Shown here: positions 40,685 to 60,420 of the stretch, one piece after another
Layout of the letters: each line of letters begins with the position of its first letter
Position numbering within the stretch: the first letter of the stretch is position 1
DNA from: Eremomyces bilateralis CBS 781.70
Lineage: Eukaryota; Ascomycota; Dothideomycetes; Eremomycetales; Eremomycetaceae
NCBI RefSeq assembly: GCF_010015585.1
Contig: NW_022985070.1
Location: forward strand, 496,001 to 560,000
Direction: 5' to 3'
DNA length: 64,000 nucleotides
Notes under the pieces: model-generated
Told to the model about the DNA's origin: nothing
The model's input: the letters and a program-made list of their open reading frames with translations, nothing else
Database searches by the model: none
Translations under genes and position numbers: made by a program

Positions 40685-42996
40685 CTATATCTCATCAATA
40701 CCAATCTCCTCCCCCTCACTATCCTGACCCTCATCCGAATCATGATCTTCATCATGATCTTCATCATTGAGCTGCTCCGCAAACAGTTGATGCGTCTCAG
40801 CCTCCTCCTCAAGTTCAAGGTCACATAAGTCATGCAATGACTTTAGATACTCTTCTGTACTATACTCCGCGTAATGCTGCAAAGTCCTGGAGTTCATATA
40901 GATGAAGAGCATCTTATTTAGGGTTTCTCCCTTCATACGACTCCTCTTCGCTGTCATCAAAAGATTCTGCACAGAGAAAGTGTGAGATAAATAGCGGTTT
41001 CGCTCAATCCGGTGATTAATGCAGCGACACGGTGGAAAACCCCGTTAGATTCCAAAAGAGCGTAGATAGATTTAACTTGATCCTTTTTCTTAGCCTCAAT
41101 CCTACGAAAACAGGCTGTTCCTGCAGCTATTTATGTGGTTTTTTATGATGATCTTTTCCCCGATAAAGGAAACAGAAGGCATAGAATCGAATATGAGATG
41201 AGACAGTGGTGATACGCCAACGATACGCCAATGATACGTCAATAAAACACAGATATTCTGTGACAGAAAGCCCTCTCCGATGGGACTGAGTTCGCCGGTG
41301 CTGTAAAAACACGATTAACGATCGCTGTTAGAGGTGCTGCATGATGAAATGCGCTCGCGGTGCTCCAGTATTCTAGGGTGTCATTCTCCTCCGCGATAAG
41401 GCGCTTATTCCGATGGAACGAGCTCATGGAATCTTTATATTGCGTGAAGATCCTGATTGCCTGGTTCGCTATAGTAGAGTTCCCCGAATACTTCATGATG
41501 AAGTCCTCAATGAGCTTGCGATCTTTTGAAGTAACGTGTACTTTCCGGTTTAGAGGGTTCAGATGGAAAGCGACACGGTGGAGATCAGCGGTAATCTGTT
41601 TCTCTTTCCGGGTAAGCCACTTGTTCTCAACCGATGCAGCCATCGGTAGGGCGTTGATGTTTGAGAACTGTAAATCAAGATGGGCCTTAACCGTATCCCA
41701 TTTCGATATCACCGAGCCAATATCCTGCTTCCGCGAGACCTCTGTCTCCCTAAGGAACATCGAGATCGGTTCAATAACATACAGGAGCTCGTCCAGATCA
41801 TTCCAGAGGCGATAATCGAGTATGACCGGCGTAAGTTCGGTAAACTTCTCTTTTAGATTACCGGATAGGCCTTCCATGGTTGGCAATACGGTACGGAAGA
41901 ACTCCTGGATAGCTTTCCTATTCTCTACGACCGAGTTGAGGGCCTTGAGATGTGTTCCCCATCTTGTTTCAACAGCAGCGATGAGCATCTTCGTCTTCCC
42001 GTAATATTGGACCTGTAGCGCCCTGATCTCACCAAGTATACGGGAGGAGTTCCGGATACTGTTGATCAGGCTCTGACAGGTCTTGAATCAAGGCTTAAAC
42101 TTCGGTAGTTTTAAGATATCTTGGACGAGGAGATTCAGACCGTGAGCCTGACAAGGAATGGGGATAATATGCCCTAGCTCTTTATCTTTCTGAATCATCT
42201 TCCAGACTGATCGCATTGTTGAGCATGTATCGGTAGATAGGCTATTAACCATATCTAGCTTGTCCACCCCAAAGAAGTCAATCAGACCCTTCCGAAGAAC
42301 GTTCACAAGGTATTTCGCGGTTTGTCGGTCTTTCCACCGTATTAGATGCGTCGAGATAACGAGGGAACCGAAATCAGGATGTATGATAGAGAGGTTGATA
42401 ACGCGTTCGCCTGCTGCATTGCTCAACTCGTCAATGCAGGCATTGATGGAGTGTTTATAGTCGAATCGATCGAAGATAAAGCGACGCACTTCATCGTAAA
42501 GGCTCGAGTATAGGTTGTTGAGGATGTCTCCCGCGACGCGGTGGCGGTTAGGTATTTTGAAATTTCCGTCCGGTCCTGCAAGCTCGAGAAGAAAGTCTTT
42601 CATATCATCATTCTCTAGAATGTGAAAGGGGCTTCCAGATGTAACGATAGCTTTTGTTAAGAGCGTTTCAAGTCTCGTCTGTCGATCGGCTTTGATATAC
42701 CGTTTCTTGAAGTATTCCTGGAGCATTGGCTGAGATCCTGATCTCTTTACACCACTCGGATTCGGGGAAGGAGACAAAGATGAAGAAGGCAAAGACATGG
42801 ATGGAGTTCGTGAGTCTCGAGATACTGGGTTATTCTCGCATTCTCCTGGGTTTTCGAAATGACCCTTCGCTCGTGTAGCGTTCTTTGCGAAGGTTTTCCC
42901 GCAGTATTTGCAGGTCATTATGGCCTTGTTCGCAGGTGAAACTCCACTCGCCCAATGCTTCCAGATAGCATCCTCAGGACGTCCGGGTCTACCCAT
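40685..42996 (-). pseudogene. hAT transposase (BED zinc finger, hAT dimerisation region), disrupted
   Basis: The first block (42088-42996, 302 codons) begins MGRPGRPEDAIWKHW and has a BED finger (CKYCGKTF, then H and C ligands about 20 residues on), followed by the hAT DNA-binding and RNaseH-like region (LSTDTCSTMRSVW, IPCQAHGLNLLVQDI). A single in-frame TGA then interrupts the frame; the next in-frame segment continues directly (FKTCQSLINS...), so the stop probably replaced a Trp codon. The second block (41239-41988) has ETRWGTHLKAL and the C-terminal PSERAF motif. About 250 bp of unrelated or scrambled sequence with stops then separate SERAF from the final block (40685-40972), which has an unusually acidic Asp/Glu tail. 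A TGG to TGA change fits C-to-T damage of the kind made by RIP, but one site cannot prove it. Confidence 0.88.
41210..41242 (+). repeat. Three tandem 11-bp units inside the broken transposase
   Basis: Three consecutive copies of a TGATACGCCAA-like unit (the second starts C, the third has GTC for GCC) lie exactly where the hAT dimerisation region is interrupted. They may mark replication slippage at the break. Confidence 0.8.
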
Positions 42997-43741
42997 ATTA
43001 TGTGATACATAGATAGAGCTCGCTGAGACGAAGAAGTAGATGTATAAAATATAAGGTTCAATAAAGGTTTGGTGATATTGTTGGGATTTGAAGACTTTAT
43101 GAATAAAATGGCCTCAAATCTACATCAGAGGCTGGGGACATTCCAGCTACTTGTGAACCCGGCTTATCAACAATTGAAAACAGCATTTATATATAATGAT
43201 ATATATATTAAATTATAGCTTTAAATGAAAGCAATCGATTAATGTATACTATATCAAAATTAAATAGATACTTGTAGAGTTATTGGTAGCAGAAGAAAAG
43301 ACCGCAAAAGCTGTATTCTGTTGCCCAGGGGAACAGACCATCAGCTGCATTACAACTTTACAAGTCGAAAATGAAAGATTTTCGACCGGACTCAACACAG
43401 ACTTCCTATATTAATATGAATGTCAAATTATAGCTCTAAATCAGGCGAGTATGAGAATGTAGGGCGCATATGGAATAGACGTGGTTCCGTAAAGATATGG
43501 TAGCTGGAAGCAATGTGGTTTCTGCATACAATAGATCCCTGCAGGTACGGGACAGATCTACCGCTTCAAAATAAATATGGCATCACGTGATATACTAACC
43601 TAATACGGCTAGCATATCATTAAACTAACTATTTTGGGCCTAGCTTATTTTAGGTAATTTTCAATTGAAATAAATGTTTATTTCAAGGTTTCAGAGTTTC
43701 TTAGGTAAGAAACGTTTATTTCATATATTATACCCACCCTA

Positions 43742-57917: not shown

Positions 57918-58230
57918 TCTTGCTATGAGAGAGCGTCTCGAGTATCGGAAATAGTGTCACTATGAATGTGTTGATTAATTCCTGAGATAGTTGTTCAACT
58001 TGTCATTTTGATAGATATGTTCAAGTGGGGACATGATCAATCTGCATTGACTGAACTGCATTAGGTTAATGTGAGAATTCCTTTACAGTTTACTTGATGG
58101 CTTTCTGTTGGCGAAGCCTGTTGCTAGGCAACGCAGATCACAGATGAAGGATGAGCCGATAAGGCATGGAGAGAGTCACGTGCCAAATACATGCCCAGGG
58201 CACGTGAAAATTGGATTATATAATCATTAA

Positions 58231-58270
58231 TCTCATCGAATCTCATCGAATCCCATTGAATCTCTCCGAA
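58231..58270 (+). repeat. Four tandem decamers, TCTCATCGAA type
   Basis: Two exact copies of TCTCATCGAA are followed by the variants TCCCATTGAA and TCTCTCCGAA. The last decamer is also the first part of the longer tandem unit next to it. Confidence 0.85.
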
Positions 58271-58392
58271 TTCAACCCGTTTTTGAGTGAGGGTAGACAT
58301 ATGTCTTACTAAGACATGAAATCACGTGAATGTTAACTTCGATGCTTGAGCGAATCTCACCGAATGCTAACCGTTTTTAGAGAGGGTCAATG
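58261..58392 (+). repeat. Tandem repeat of about 94 bp, second copy split by a mobile element
   Basis: Copy 1 starts at 58261 and copy 2 at 58355. They share a CCGAAT...AACCGTTTTT...GAGGGT core. Copy 2 runs only to 58392 and resumes at 60421 with TATGTCTTACTAAG, which matches copy 1 at 58300-58313, and then TCATGTGA against TCACGTGA. Identity is roughly 75 percent by eye. The interruption coincides exactly with the element and its target duplication, which independently supports the element boundaries. Confidence 0.75.
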
Positions 58393-58500
58393 TTACCTCA
58401 GCAAGCTCAGGCTATTTCTCAGGGGAGTCTAACCTTTTTTGTAAAAGGTCACGTTACTTTAACTACTCCTCTGGTAAATAGCCTGAGGATTCTGTCAATG
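58393..58500 (+). repeat. Left compound inverted end
   Basis: Outer arm 58393-58417 and inner arm 58476-58500 match 60388-60412 and 60298-60322 respectively as exact reverse complements over 25 bp each. Confidence 0.9.
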
Positions 58501-58985
58501 ACGCGCACTGCTCTGCATAAATTTTGTATGTGGTTTGTATGTATCTCTGCGGATTTGACAAAATCACGATCCATTAATAACCACATCAAAACACGTCGTA
58601 TGTACTCCAAAATCTGATCGATTGTGTATTAAAGTATGCTCTATCTTGTAATTGATTTTTTTTTACATGTCCATGCTTGTGTCGGGTGAAAAACGCTAAT
58701 ATGTGATGAACTAGACCACACCGAAATCACCATCCAGCCATCGTTCCGGAACTTACGGTCGAATGAGCCTGGAAAACACCCATTGGATGTCATATAATGC
58801 CTTTCTCGGTCGGTATTCACACGAATATCTATTATTGAACACATTTTGTGTTCATATTTCCCATGCGAAGCAAGGCGAGCGTTCGAAACGGGCGACGAGA
58901 GACTGTGGACATCGCCGGAGATCTCGTCCACGATGCCTATAGCACTACGAGTATGCTAGCTATATAGCGGCTGGTCGAAATTGCA

Positions 58986-59235
58986 AGAGACGTGCCCGAG
59001 GAAGTGCAGAAGGTCATCATCCGAGCAGGCCTAGACCGCCATCTCTACCCATTCGAGCCTCGTTAGAAGCAGATAGATGTTATATGGCATTTAGTATTCA
59101 AGTAGGAGGACCTTCCTCTTGTAGCGAAGATATCTTTTGGTAAAAATGTCATATTCCAGGCAATGCTATTGCTTTGTCGCGGTGGCATCGGCTTCATCCT
59201 TATCCCTTTGGATCGAATTAGACAGGAGTATATGG
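58986..59235 (+). pseudogene. RecQ-like helicase fragment, decayed
   Basis: On the + strand one frame reads LDRHLYPFEPR, then IDVIWHLVFK, EDLPLVAKISFGKNVIFQAM and GGIGFILIPLDRIRQEY, interrupted by in-frame stops. This matches the start of a superfamily-2 RecQ-like helicase domain: motif 0/I with a degraded Walker A (KISFGKN in place of a K-T-x-F/S-G-K-S type loop) and motif Ia (IPLDRI). The fragment is far too short to be functional. Similar RecQ-like helicases are dispersed in fungal genomes, some near telomeres. Stops of the TAG type within it fit C-to-T decay. Confidence 0.6.
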
Positions 59236-59299
59236 ACGGACCGTCCCCTAGTTATAATCGGTCGACGTCTATACTAAGAGGCGATAAGGATGCCTTTGT

Positions 59300-59563
59300 T
59301 TATTCTGCCACGGTTTCGAGATATCTGTGGGCCCTCTTGTAGCCTTTATAAACCCCAAGCTGGTGAAGAATATCGAGGACACGCCGTTTCACACCATTTG
59401 AATGCAGAAAGGCGTCAAATACGCGGGGAAACCTATTGCTCCCTTCCGACCCCCGAGAATAGCAGAGAATTAACGTGACTATCGCAATCCTGTGGTTAAA
59501 CTTAACAGGATCCCGTGGTAGTCGATCTTTTCTCATCTTAGGTGTCATAAGACTATTAAGCAA
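59300..59563 (-). pseudogene. Decayed coding relic inside the 2-kb element, family unknown
   Basis: This - strand frame of 87 codons has protein-like composition (KMRKDRLPRDPVKFNHRIAI, then YSRGSEGSNRFPRVFDAFLH and GVKRRVLDILHQLGVYKGY). The same frame continues upstream to about 59700 with stops. The pattern of a helix, a surface-exposed polar loop and 'x-x-LGV/S-x-x-Y' recalls repeat-encoded fungal proteins that accompany transposons, but I cannot name the family. It faces the helicase relic tail to tail. Confidence 0.4.
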
Positions 59564-60297
59564 TCTACATAGAAGAGGAGCACGAGTGCTAACTTGCTCG
59601 TATATCTGCCTAGACAGTATGTCGCCTAGTATACACTCGTAGTCCTCGATTTTCTAACCCTCTAACTGTTTCCCCCTCCCTACGCCGGTAGGTAAAGTCT
59701 TCTCCTAGATGCAGTCGACTTAGTAGGCACTAAACATATCTACGGCTTCTTCTAGTGCCTTCATTTCCTTCCTTAGACCCTTTATAGTGATAGTTCCTGC
59801 CGCACTAGACGCGGGATTCTTATAGTGCGTCTAAGACCTCTGGGCTCTGGCTAACCGTAGACAGCCTCAGCGAGCTATTTGGCTCGCGTGACAGAGCACT
59901 CTCTATAACCACCCAACCCTTAAGTCGTCGCGTAGATGTAGATAAATTCTCAAAATTTAATGCTCTTTTTCTTCATGAATTGACATATCTCATTTATTCT
60001 CTGTGCCTTACTGCGTCTTTGAGACCCTCTTACTTTCTGATGTGGTGCATTAGATGTGTTTGACGCAGCACTATGCTGAGGACTTGGAGCAAGTAGCAAA
60101 GTGGGCGAGTTCAACCGCGCGCTCTGACGACGCTGGTTTCAGGCCGACACGACCCAAAATTCAATCAATTATGGAGAAAAAGCAGGGGAATCGAATGGTT
60201 ATATTTAATTGACGGAGCACAGTGTGGTTGTGGATGAAAATGGAGTTAAAAATGGTCTTCCATTTGGTATGAAAGCTCTCCACACACACCCAAAACC

Positions 60298-60412
60298 CAT
60301 TGACAGAATCCTCAGGCTATTTGTTCGAGGAGTGCATGTGACTTACCGATTAGGTATAGTCCCACTCCGGTGCCTTGGCACGACCACAAATAGCCTGAGC
60401 TTGCTGAGGTAA
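60298..60412 (-). repeat. Right compound inverted end
   Basis: Its inner arm (60298-60322) and outer arm (60388-60412) are exact reverse complements of the left end's arms. The spacer between them differs from the left end's spacer in length and sequence. Confidence 0.9.
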
Positions 60413-60420
60413 GGTCAATG

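Follow-up and report, generated by a model that had tools for sequence, protein, structure and literature searches.

Several described groups of DNA transposons share single features with the element treated here. Target duplications of 8 bp are usual in hAT elements and are also made by Zisupton (KDZ) elements, which are present in fungi (PMC12730594). C/DxxH has been given as the signature of hAT, and a RecQ helicase is reported for KolobokH, a fungal lineage of DDD/E transposons (PMC9587614). RecQ-like helicase cores are furthermore encoded by the multicopy subtelomeric (telomere-linked) helicase genes of fungi (PMC7473861 and PMC4522978). We here analyze a stretch of 64,000 nucleotides, hereafter the window, from Eremomyces bilateralis CBS 781.70, a dothideomycete with an assembly of 26.6 Mb in 62 contigs, and in it an element of 2,020 bp at positions 58393–60412. 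In our view it is very probably a non-autonomous deletion derivative of a cut-and-paste DNA transposon of about 6 kb, which encodes a probable transposase carrying the domain DUF6589 and, in convergent orientation, a RecQ-like helicase.

The window element and its full-length relatives

The window element is flanked by a perfect 8-bp direct repeat, GGTCAATG, at 58385–58392 and 60413–60420. Each end consists of an outer arm of 25 bp (58393–58417, + strand, on the left; 60388–60412, − strand, on the right), a spacer (58 bp, 58418–58475; 65 bp, 60323–60387) and an inner arm of 25 bp (58476–58500, − strand; 60298–60322, + strand). When the two ends are compared as reverse complements, the outer arms agree at 25/25 positions and so do the inner arms, as an earlier note made from the letters of the window had described along with the flanking repeats. 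The end motif recurs: its first 20 bases occur twice in the window with up to three mismatches (mean of 0.01 in 100 shuffles), and 79 times in the genome with up to two mismatches, compared with 0 for the reversed control. Since the left and right spacers are barely alike (34 of 500 shuffles score equally high) yet neither differs at any position between the window copy and any of the four others in the comparison, the two ends are two different, conserved modules. To call the spacers drifting, as the earlier note did, is therefore incorrect, and its idea that selection or conversion acts on the arms only finds no support.

A full-length relative using the same ends, which the note had suggested looking for, is present at C26:193172–199187 (locus L009, 1173–7188). 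This copy of 6,016 bp has ends of the window type and the duplication CTGTGAAG; two of its open reading frames (ORFs), of 302 and 608 aa, share a strand, and a third, of 834 aa, is convergent to them. The 608-aa ORF matches DUF6589 (PF20231) with E=1.1e-67 and 229 bits, against a Pfam gathering score of 27. The 834-aa ORF contains DEAD and Helicase_C domains; its closest solved relatives are RecQ1 chains (E=2.4e-18), and it scores 113 bits against TIGR00614, the RecQ model of NCBI, which is under the cut-off of 219.8. In the 6-kb elements no other ORF of more than 110 aa with a recognized domain was found in a scan covering only the three long ORFs. Compared with the C26 copy, the terminal 254 bp on the left and 130 bp on the right of the window element are identical, against 94.6% and 88% identity (differences of 5.4% and 12%) for its entire left and right parts. 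The ends are thus kept alike as whole modules, through selection or conversion.

Both genes survive in the window copy as remnants with internal stops. That of the RecQ-like helicase (58863–59228, + strand) corresponds to residues 1–122 of protein P0053, and that of the DUF6589 gene (59285–60138, − strand) to the N-terminal residues 5–102 and 109–289 of protein P0021, the catalytic core being absent. Between them lies the junction of an internal deletion (59228–59230), where the match to the 6-kb copy stops between element positions 836 and 838. Besides the window's own copy, the genome holds three short copies that are 99% identical to it across the full length (on C27, C3 and C15), one truncated copy (C50) and many partial ones. 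The copies on C27 and C3 are identical across 2,021 positions and that on C15 has 2 mismatches to both; the window copy differs from them at 15 (C27), 15 (C3) and 17 (C15) of 2,019 aligned positions. Because these four short copies align end to end, and the alignment of the window copy to the 6-kb copy is broken at 836/838, the internal deletion is common to all four. They are flanked by distinct duplications (GGTCAATG, GTCGTGGG, GCGCAACC and TGCTGTGC). That the window copy lacks the transposase core, yet the deleted form is found at four sites, points to mobilization in trans, most likely as the earlier note had presumed from the decayed interior.

Perfect 8-bp duplications flank 11 of 16 two-ended loci of the window's family, as against 0 of 240 cross-locus pairings used as a control; 16 of the 17 facing end pairs were examined, C3:1252090–1252872 being left out. 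Among the remaining loci, L029 can be read as having a 9-bp repeat, ATCCTCTAG, at either side, whereas the flanks of L030 are inverted. The outcome that would have spoken against the mobile element proposed in the note, arms that are mainly single and lack duplications, was thus not observed. The joined flanks of five insertions were compared with the genome. For the window site, an uninterrupted paralogue of 81% identity crosses the joint; it adjoins the element at 58258–58329 (+ strand). For the C15 site, more than 10 partial paralogues cross the joint, starting about 30 bases to its left, the best being 98% identical (C22:250867–250988). No genome match crossing the joint was found in this search for the C27, C3 and C26 sites. 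Short repeats of about 10 bp (CGAATCTCATCGAAT) lie beside the window element at 58227–58271 and 58351–58365, in the locally duplicated target region. Elsewhere, six ends (L022, L028, L029, L030, L041 and L048) adjoin one of two recurring sequences around ...TGTTGGATATCAACCATCCTCTAG or ...CCCAACCTCTAGAGGAT, with slight variation in L022 and L028. These sequences resemble parts of a long terminal repeat (LTR) retrotransposon; they may be a target that was hit repeatedly, or the insertion may be carried by an LTR element.

A second lineage, with TTATC ends, shows the same association of genes. L045, L046, L039 and L040 are about 30% identical to the window's family in DUF6589 and have a convergent helicase gene; L044, of which only the left end was seen, has no helicase in the stretch analyzed. 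When L045 was scanned blindly for inverted ends with identical 8-mers outside them, one of 112 pairs stood out clearly, with 13 of 16 end letters matching (next best, 8): TAGCACTG with ends TTATCTCAGCTTGGGCTCAG and TTATCTCAGTTGGGACTCAG, delimiting 6,658 bp. The same scan of L046 gave no convincing termini. The pattern TTATCTCAGN{4,7}CTCAG occurs 60 times in the genome and 2 times for the control. All facing pairs counted at less than 10 kb, 14 in number, comprise 10 with a perfect 8-bp duplication, 2 with a 7/8 match and 2 with none. Over both lineages, therefore, 21 of 30 two-ended loci have perfect 8-bp duplications, of varied sequence; inverted ends together with target duplications of fixed length are the features of a cut-and-paste DNA transposon with terminal inverted repeats. 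Full-length elements of both lineages, about 30% identical, lie less than 20 kb apart (C26:193082–199285 and C26:171000–180900), and at C36:46949–47078 (L074) a TTATC-lineage element of 130 bp, barely more than two ends, has a perfect 8-bp duplication, CCTGCTGA.

DUF6589 as a candidate transposase

DUF6589 is found at 18 places in the host genome, 17 of them over the cut-off, and at none in 14 control genomes; a divergent locus, C1:1432617, is outside the loci analyzed. Pfam lists its function as unknown, and a search of 5.39 million papers found none naming the domain. In a structure comparison, rows 1–26 for a DUF6589 protein are all transposases or RAG proteins and the predicted fold is hAT/P-like. 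D161, D320 and E574 are conserved. DUF6589 most likely represents a DDE transposase whose RNase-H core is of the P-element/hAT type, and these residues would be catalytic. The 43 DUF6589 members match six Pfam families in all, and no model of a known transposase at E up to 0.1. H355 is present in 40 of 40 members and the C/D place of C/DxxH is A, S or G in the same 40 of 40; CxxH or DxxH occurs elsewhere between the second D and the last E in 10 of 41. A profile search of solved structures returned one row, at chance level; no relative was confirmed among viral contigs or phage records, and the viral structures of BFVD gave nothing under E 0.001. In addition, a DUF6589 fragment at C3:560473–561024 (L047), 90% identical, lies within an open frame of 1,914 aa, 3,877 of the 9,901 surrounding bases being N. 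One record, P0017 of Metarhizium anisopliae (970 aa), has both Piwi and DUF6589 domains and could represent either an element in or beside an Argonaute-like gene or a fusion of gene models.

Paired and nested ends

Outer and inner arms can pair with each other: in the left end of the window element the first 12 bases of the inner arm, AAATAGCCTGAG, pair with CTCAGGCTATTT of the outer arm. The stem scores above all 200 shuffles at 13 of the 15 ends tested, the others being L017 (16 shuffles reach its score) and L044 (58). Twelve of these 13 stems begin at the outer arm's second CTCAG; the remaining one begins 4 bases earlier. Between families the paired letters vary on both sides (CTCAGGCTATTT/AAATAGCCTGAG, CTCAGGCCATTTGT/ACAAATGGCCTGAG, CTCAGACGGTATCT/AGATACCGTCTGAG and CTCAGACGTTAC/GTAACGTCTGAG). 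These data agree both with inverted sites bound by a single protein and with an end that folds; the paired transposase-binding sites of the earlier note stay plausible, as the arms pair. Under our preferred reading, the DUF6589 transposase would recognize terminal modules of about 110 bp, in which an outer arm TTAYCTCAG-N4..7-CTCAG is combined with an inner arm in inverted orientation; its cuts would fall at TTA, and its insertions would be staggered by 8 bp. A copy deprived of most of the helicase gene and of the transposase core would then have spread by means of transposase supplied by intact copies, and the helicase might open the palindromic ends or aid repair.

Some elements appear to have inserted into the ends of others. 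C50 carries an element of the window type, with TGGTTGGC as its left flank, which is interrupted in its right inner arm after GCTATTTG, where another element starts; on C20, an element of this second kind ends and is followed by GCTATTTG, the rest of the right end and TGGTTGGC. The two contigs overlap by 2,501 bases at 99.8%, and C17, which overlaps C50 equally well, shows this right junction too, its end being slightly different. The simplest reading of these junctions would be a full-length element inserted, with an 8-bp duplication, into the palindromic end of a shorter one. L023, L027, L016 and L031 break at the same position of the inner arm, without a matching other side, and we estimate at least two independent inner-arm insertions, C50/C20 being one event seen from both sides. 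In L025, L036 and L033, two ends follow each other on one side. Separate insertions with duplications of their own are excluded there by the position of the duplication beyond the outer end, and we infer that the doubled ends are products of transposition using a borrowed outer end. A telomere-linked origin of the copies at contig ends was also rejected, no TTAGGG/CCCTAA being present in 12 contig ends (150 bases each). Since 8-bp flanks moreover agree across contigs (C38/C3, CTTTGCGC; C35/C44, ACTAAACT; C37/C35, CACCAGGA; C50/C20, TGGTTGGC), these contig ends look like assembly breaks within the element.

Alternative explanations and transfer between fungi

Several observations weigh against parts of this interpretation. 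A first alternative is a non-autonomous element of ordinary hAT or P type that a resident hAT transposase moves, DUF6589 and helicase being passengers. Such an element would also make 8-bp duplications, as hAT does (PMC12730594), and the predicted DUF6589 fold is itself hAT/P-like. In the window, moreover, a 341-aa open frame at 42091–43113 (− strand), perhaps another transposon remnant, has a weak match of 30.6 bits (cut-off 34.7) to DUF659, a domain of hAT-like proteins. Such an origin is nevertheless very improbable, given that DUF6589 and helicase are linked and convergent in two lineages with a common terminal motif, that no known transposase model is matched by the DUF6589 members, and that the three long ORFs scanned in the 6-kb elements include no further domain-bearing candidate. 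The inner arm could alternatively be non-functional, the palindrome having arisen incidentally when ends were duplicated or when copies inserted into the ends of others. Doubled and nested ends do exist, the terminal 254 and 130 bp are homogenized between copies, and eight CCATTG-type ends (CTCAGGCCATTG or CTCAGGCCATTA) retain the inner arm AAATAGCCTGAG, which follows the outer arm over only 7 pairs. This alternative is possible but doubtful, because pairing recurs in two lineages of about 30% identity with different letters on both sides (CTCAGGCTATTT/AAATAGCCTGAG, CTCAGACGTTAC/GTAACGTCTGAG, CTCAGACGGTATCT/AGATACCGTCTGAG) and the significant stems begin at, or in one case 4 bases before, the same CTCAG. 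Going further, the element could represent a separate superfamily of DDE transposons whose ends are recognized in folded form, which would be the reason for bringing along a RecQ-type helicase. The transposase would read the palindrome and an unpaired TTAYCTCAG tip, the helicase would open or clear the extruded cruciform or hairpin, and the palindrome would be a preferred target, with copies entering one another's ends and swapping them to yield hybrid ends, and with movement between fungal classes. We regard this wider proposal as unlikely.

Returning to the transposon with DUF6589 and helicase, its full-length relatives seem, from protein comparisons, to have passed from one fungus to another across large evolutionary distances. 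A Stachybotrys elegans protein matches the C26 transposase ORF with 90% identity along 94% of the ORF, and the helicase is 81–82% identical to proteins of Stachybotrys and Dactylonectria estremocensis, which are Sordariomycetes and hence of another class than the host. The serine palmitoyltransferase of the window, the one host gene used as a control, is 67% identical over 99% to the named fungal protein that matches it best; its highest identity among the best 120 of 5,690 matches, not counting its own record, is 75% (over 84%). In Stachybotrys the DUF6589 and helicase proteins come from one contig of 1,043,615 bases, and in Dactylonectria macrodidyma from one of 1,046,827, as expected of linked genes. 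The DUF6589 tree gives no resolution around the Eremomyces rows. The helicase tree places two Eremomyces copies apart, one together with Stachybotrys, Dactylonectria and Fusarium (100/100) and another with Metarhizium (96/99). Vertical inheritance under purifying selection could also produce high identities, and the reliance on a single control gene and on proteins rather than on DNA of the other species leaves it some room; the excess over the control and the placement of two Eremomyces helicases in different groups with Hypocreales make it improbable.

Comparison with known systems

As the earlier note had said, the TTACC terminus and the 8-bp duplication do not name a family. What is new, judged without Repbase, is the role proposed for DUF6589, its convergent association with a helicase gene in two lineages, the pairing within the ends and the insertion of end into end. 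DUF6589 thereby gains a proposed function as a DDE transposase, tied to a RecQ-like helicase in one mobile unit. If true, this would explain part of the multicopy RecQ-like genes in fungi, and provide a candidate vehicle by which genes could move from one fungal class to another, as well as a compact system for asking why a DDE transposon has a helicase and palindromic ends.

AcademH combines an Academ transposase with a helicase and makes duplications of 3–4 bp, and the 8-bp duplication of the present element speaks against it. Pfam includes a KDZ model; with Zisupton (KDZ) the element shares 8-bp duplications and a fungal host, but no KDZ-type model was matched by the 43 DUF6589 members at E up to 0.1. 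KolobokH resembles it as a fungal element with a RecQ helicase. Here, however, the helicase is a separate, convergent gene, and in place of the TTAA target duplication and the RR..YY termini of Kolobok/KolobokH there are varied 8-bp duplications and TT..AA termini, with TTAY ends. The subtelomeric RecQ helicases likewise have a RecQ-like core and are multicopy; the present gene lies inside an element with inverted ends, and the 12 contig ends carry no telomere repeats. From the P element of Drosophila, DUF6589 differs in being only 7% identical in the structure alignment and in matching none of its Pfam models at the same threshold, and the element in having a RecQ-like helicase and TTAY ends with inner arms. 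hAT elements, such as Hermes, share the 8-bp duplication; DUF6589 members match no hAT model, and at the C/D place of the hAT signature they have A, S or G. The element works like a transposon of the P/hAT cut-and-paste type, but sequence similarity to hAT, P or KDZ transposases by Pfam models, the C/DxxH signature of hAT and the TTAA duplication and RR..YY termini of Kolobok were not found.
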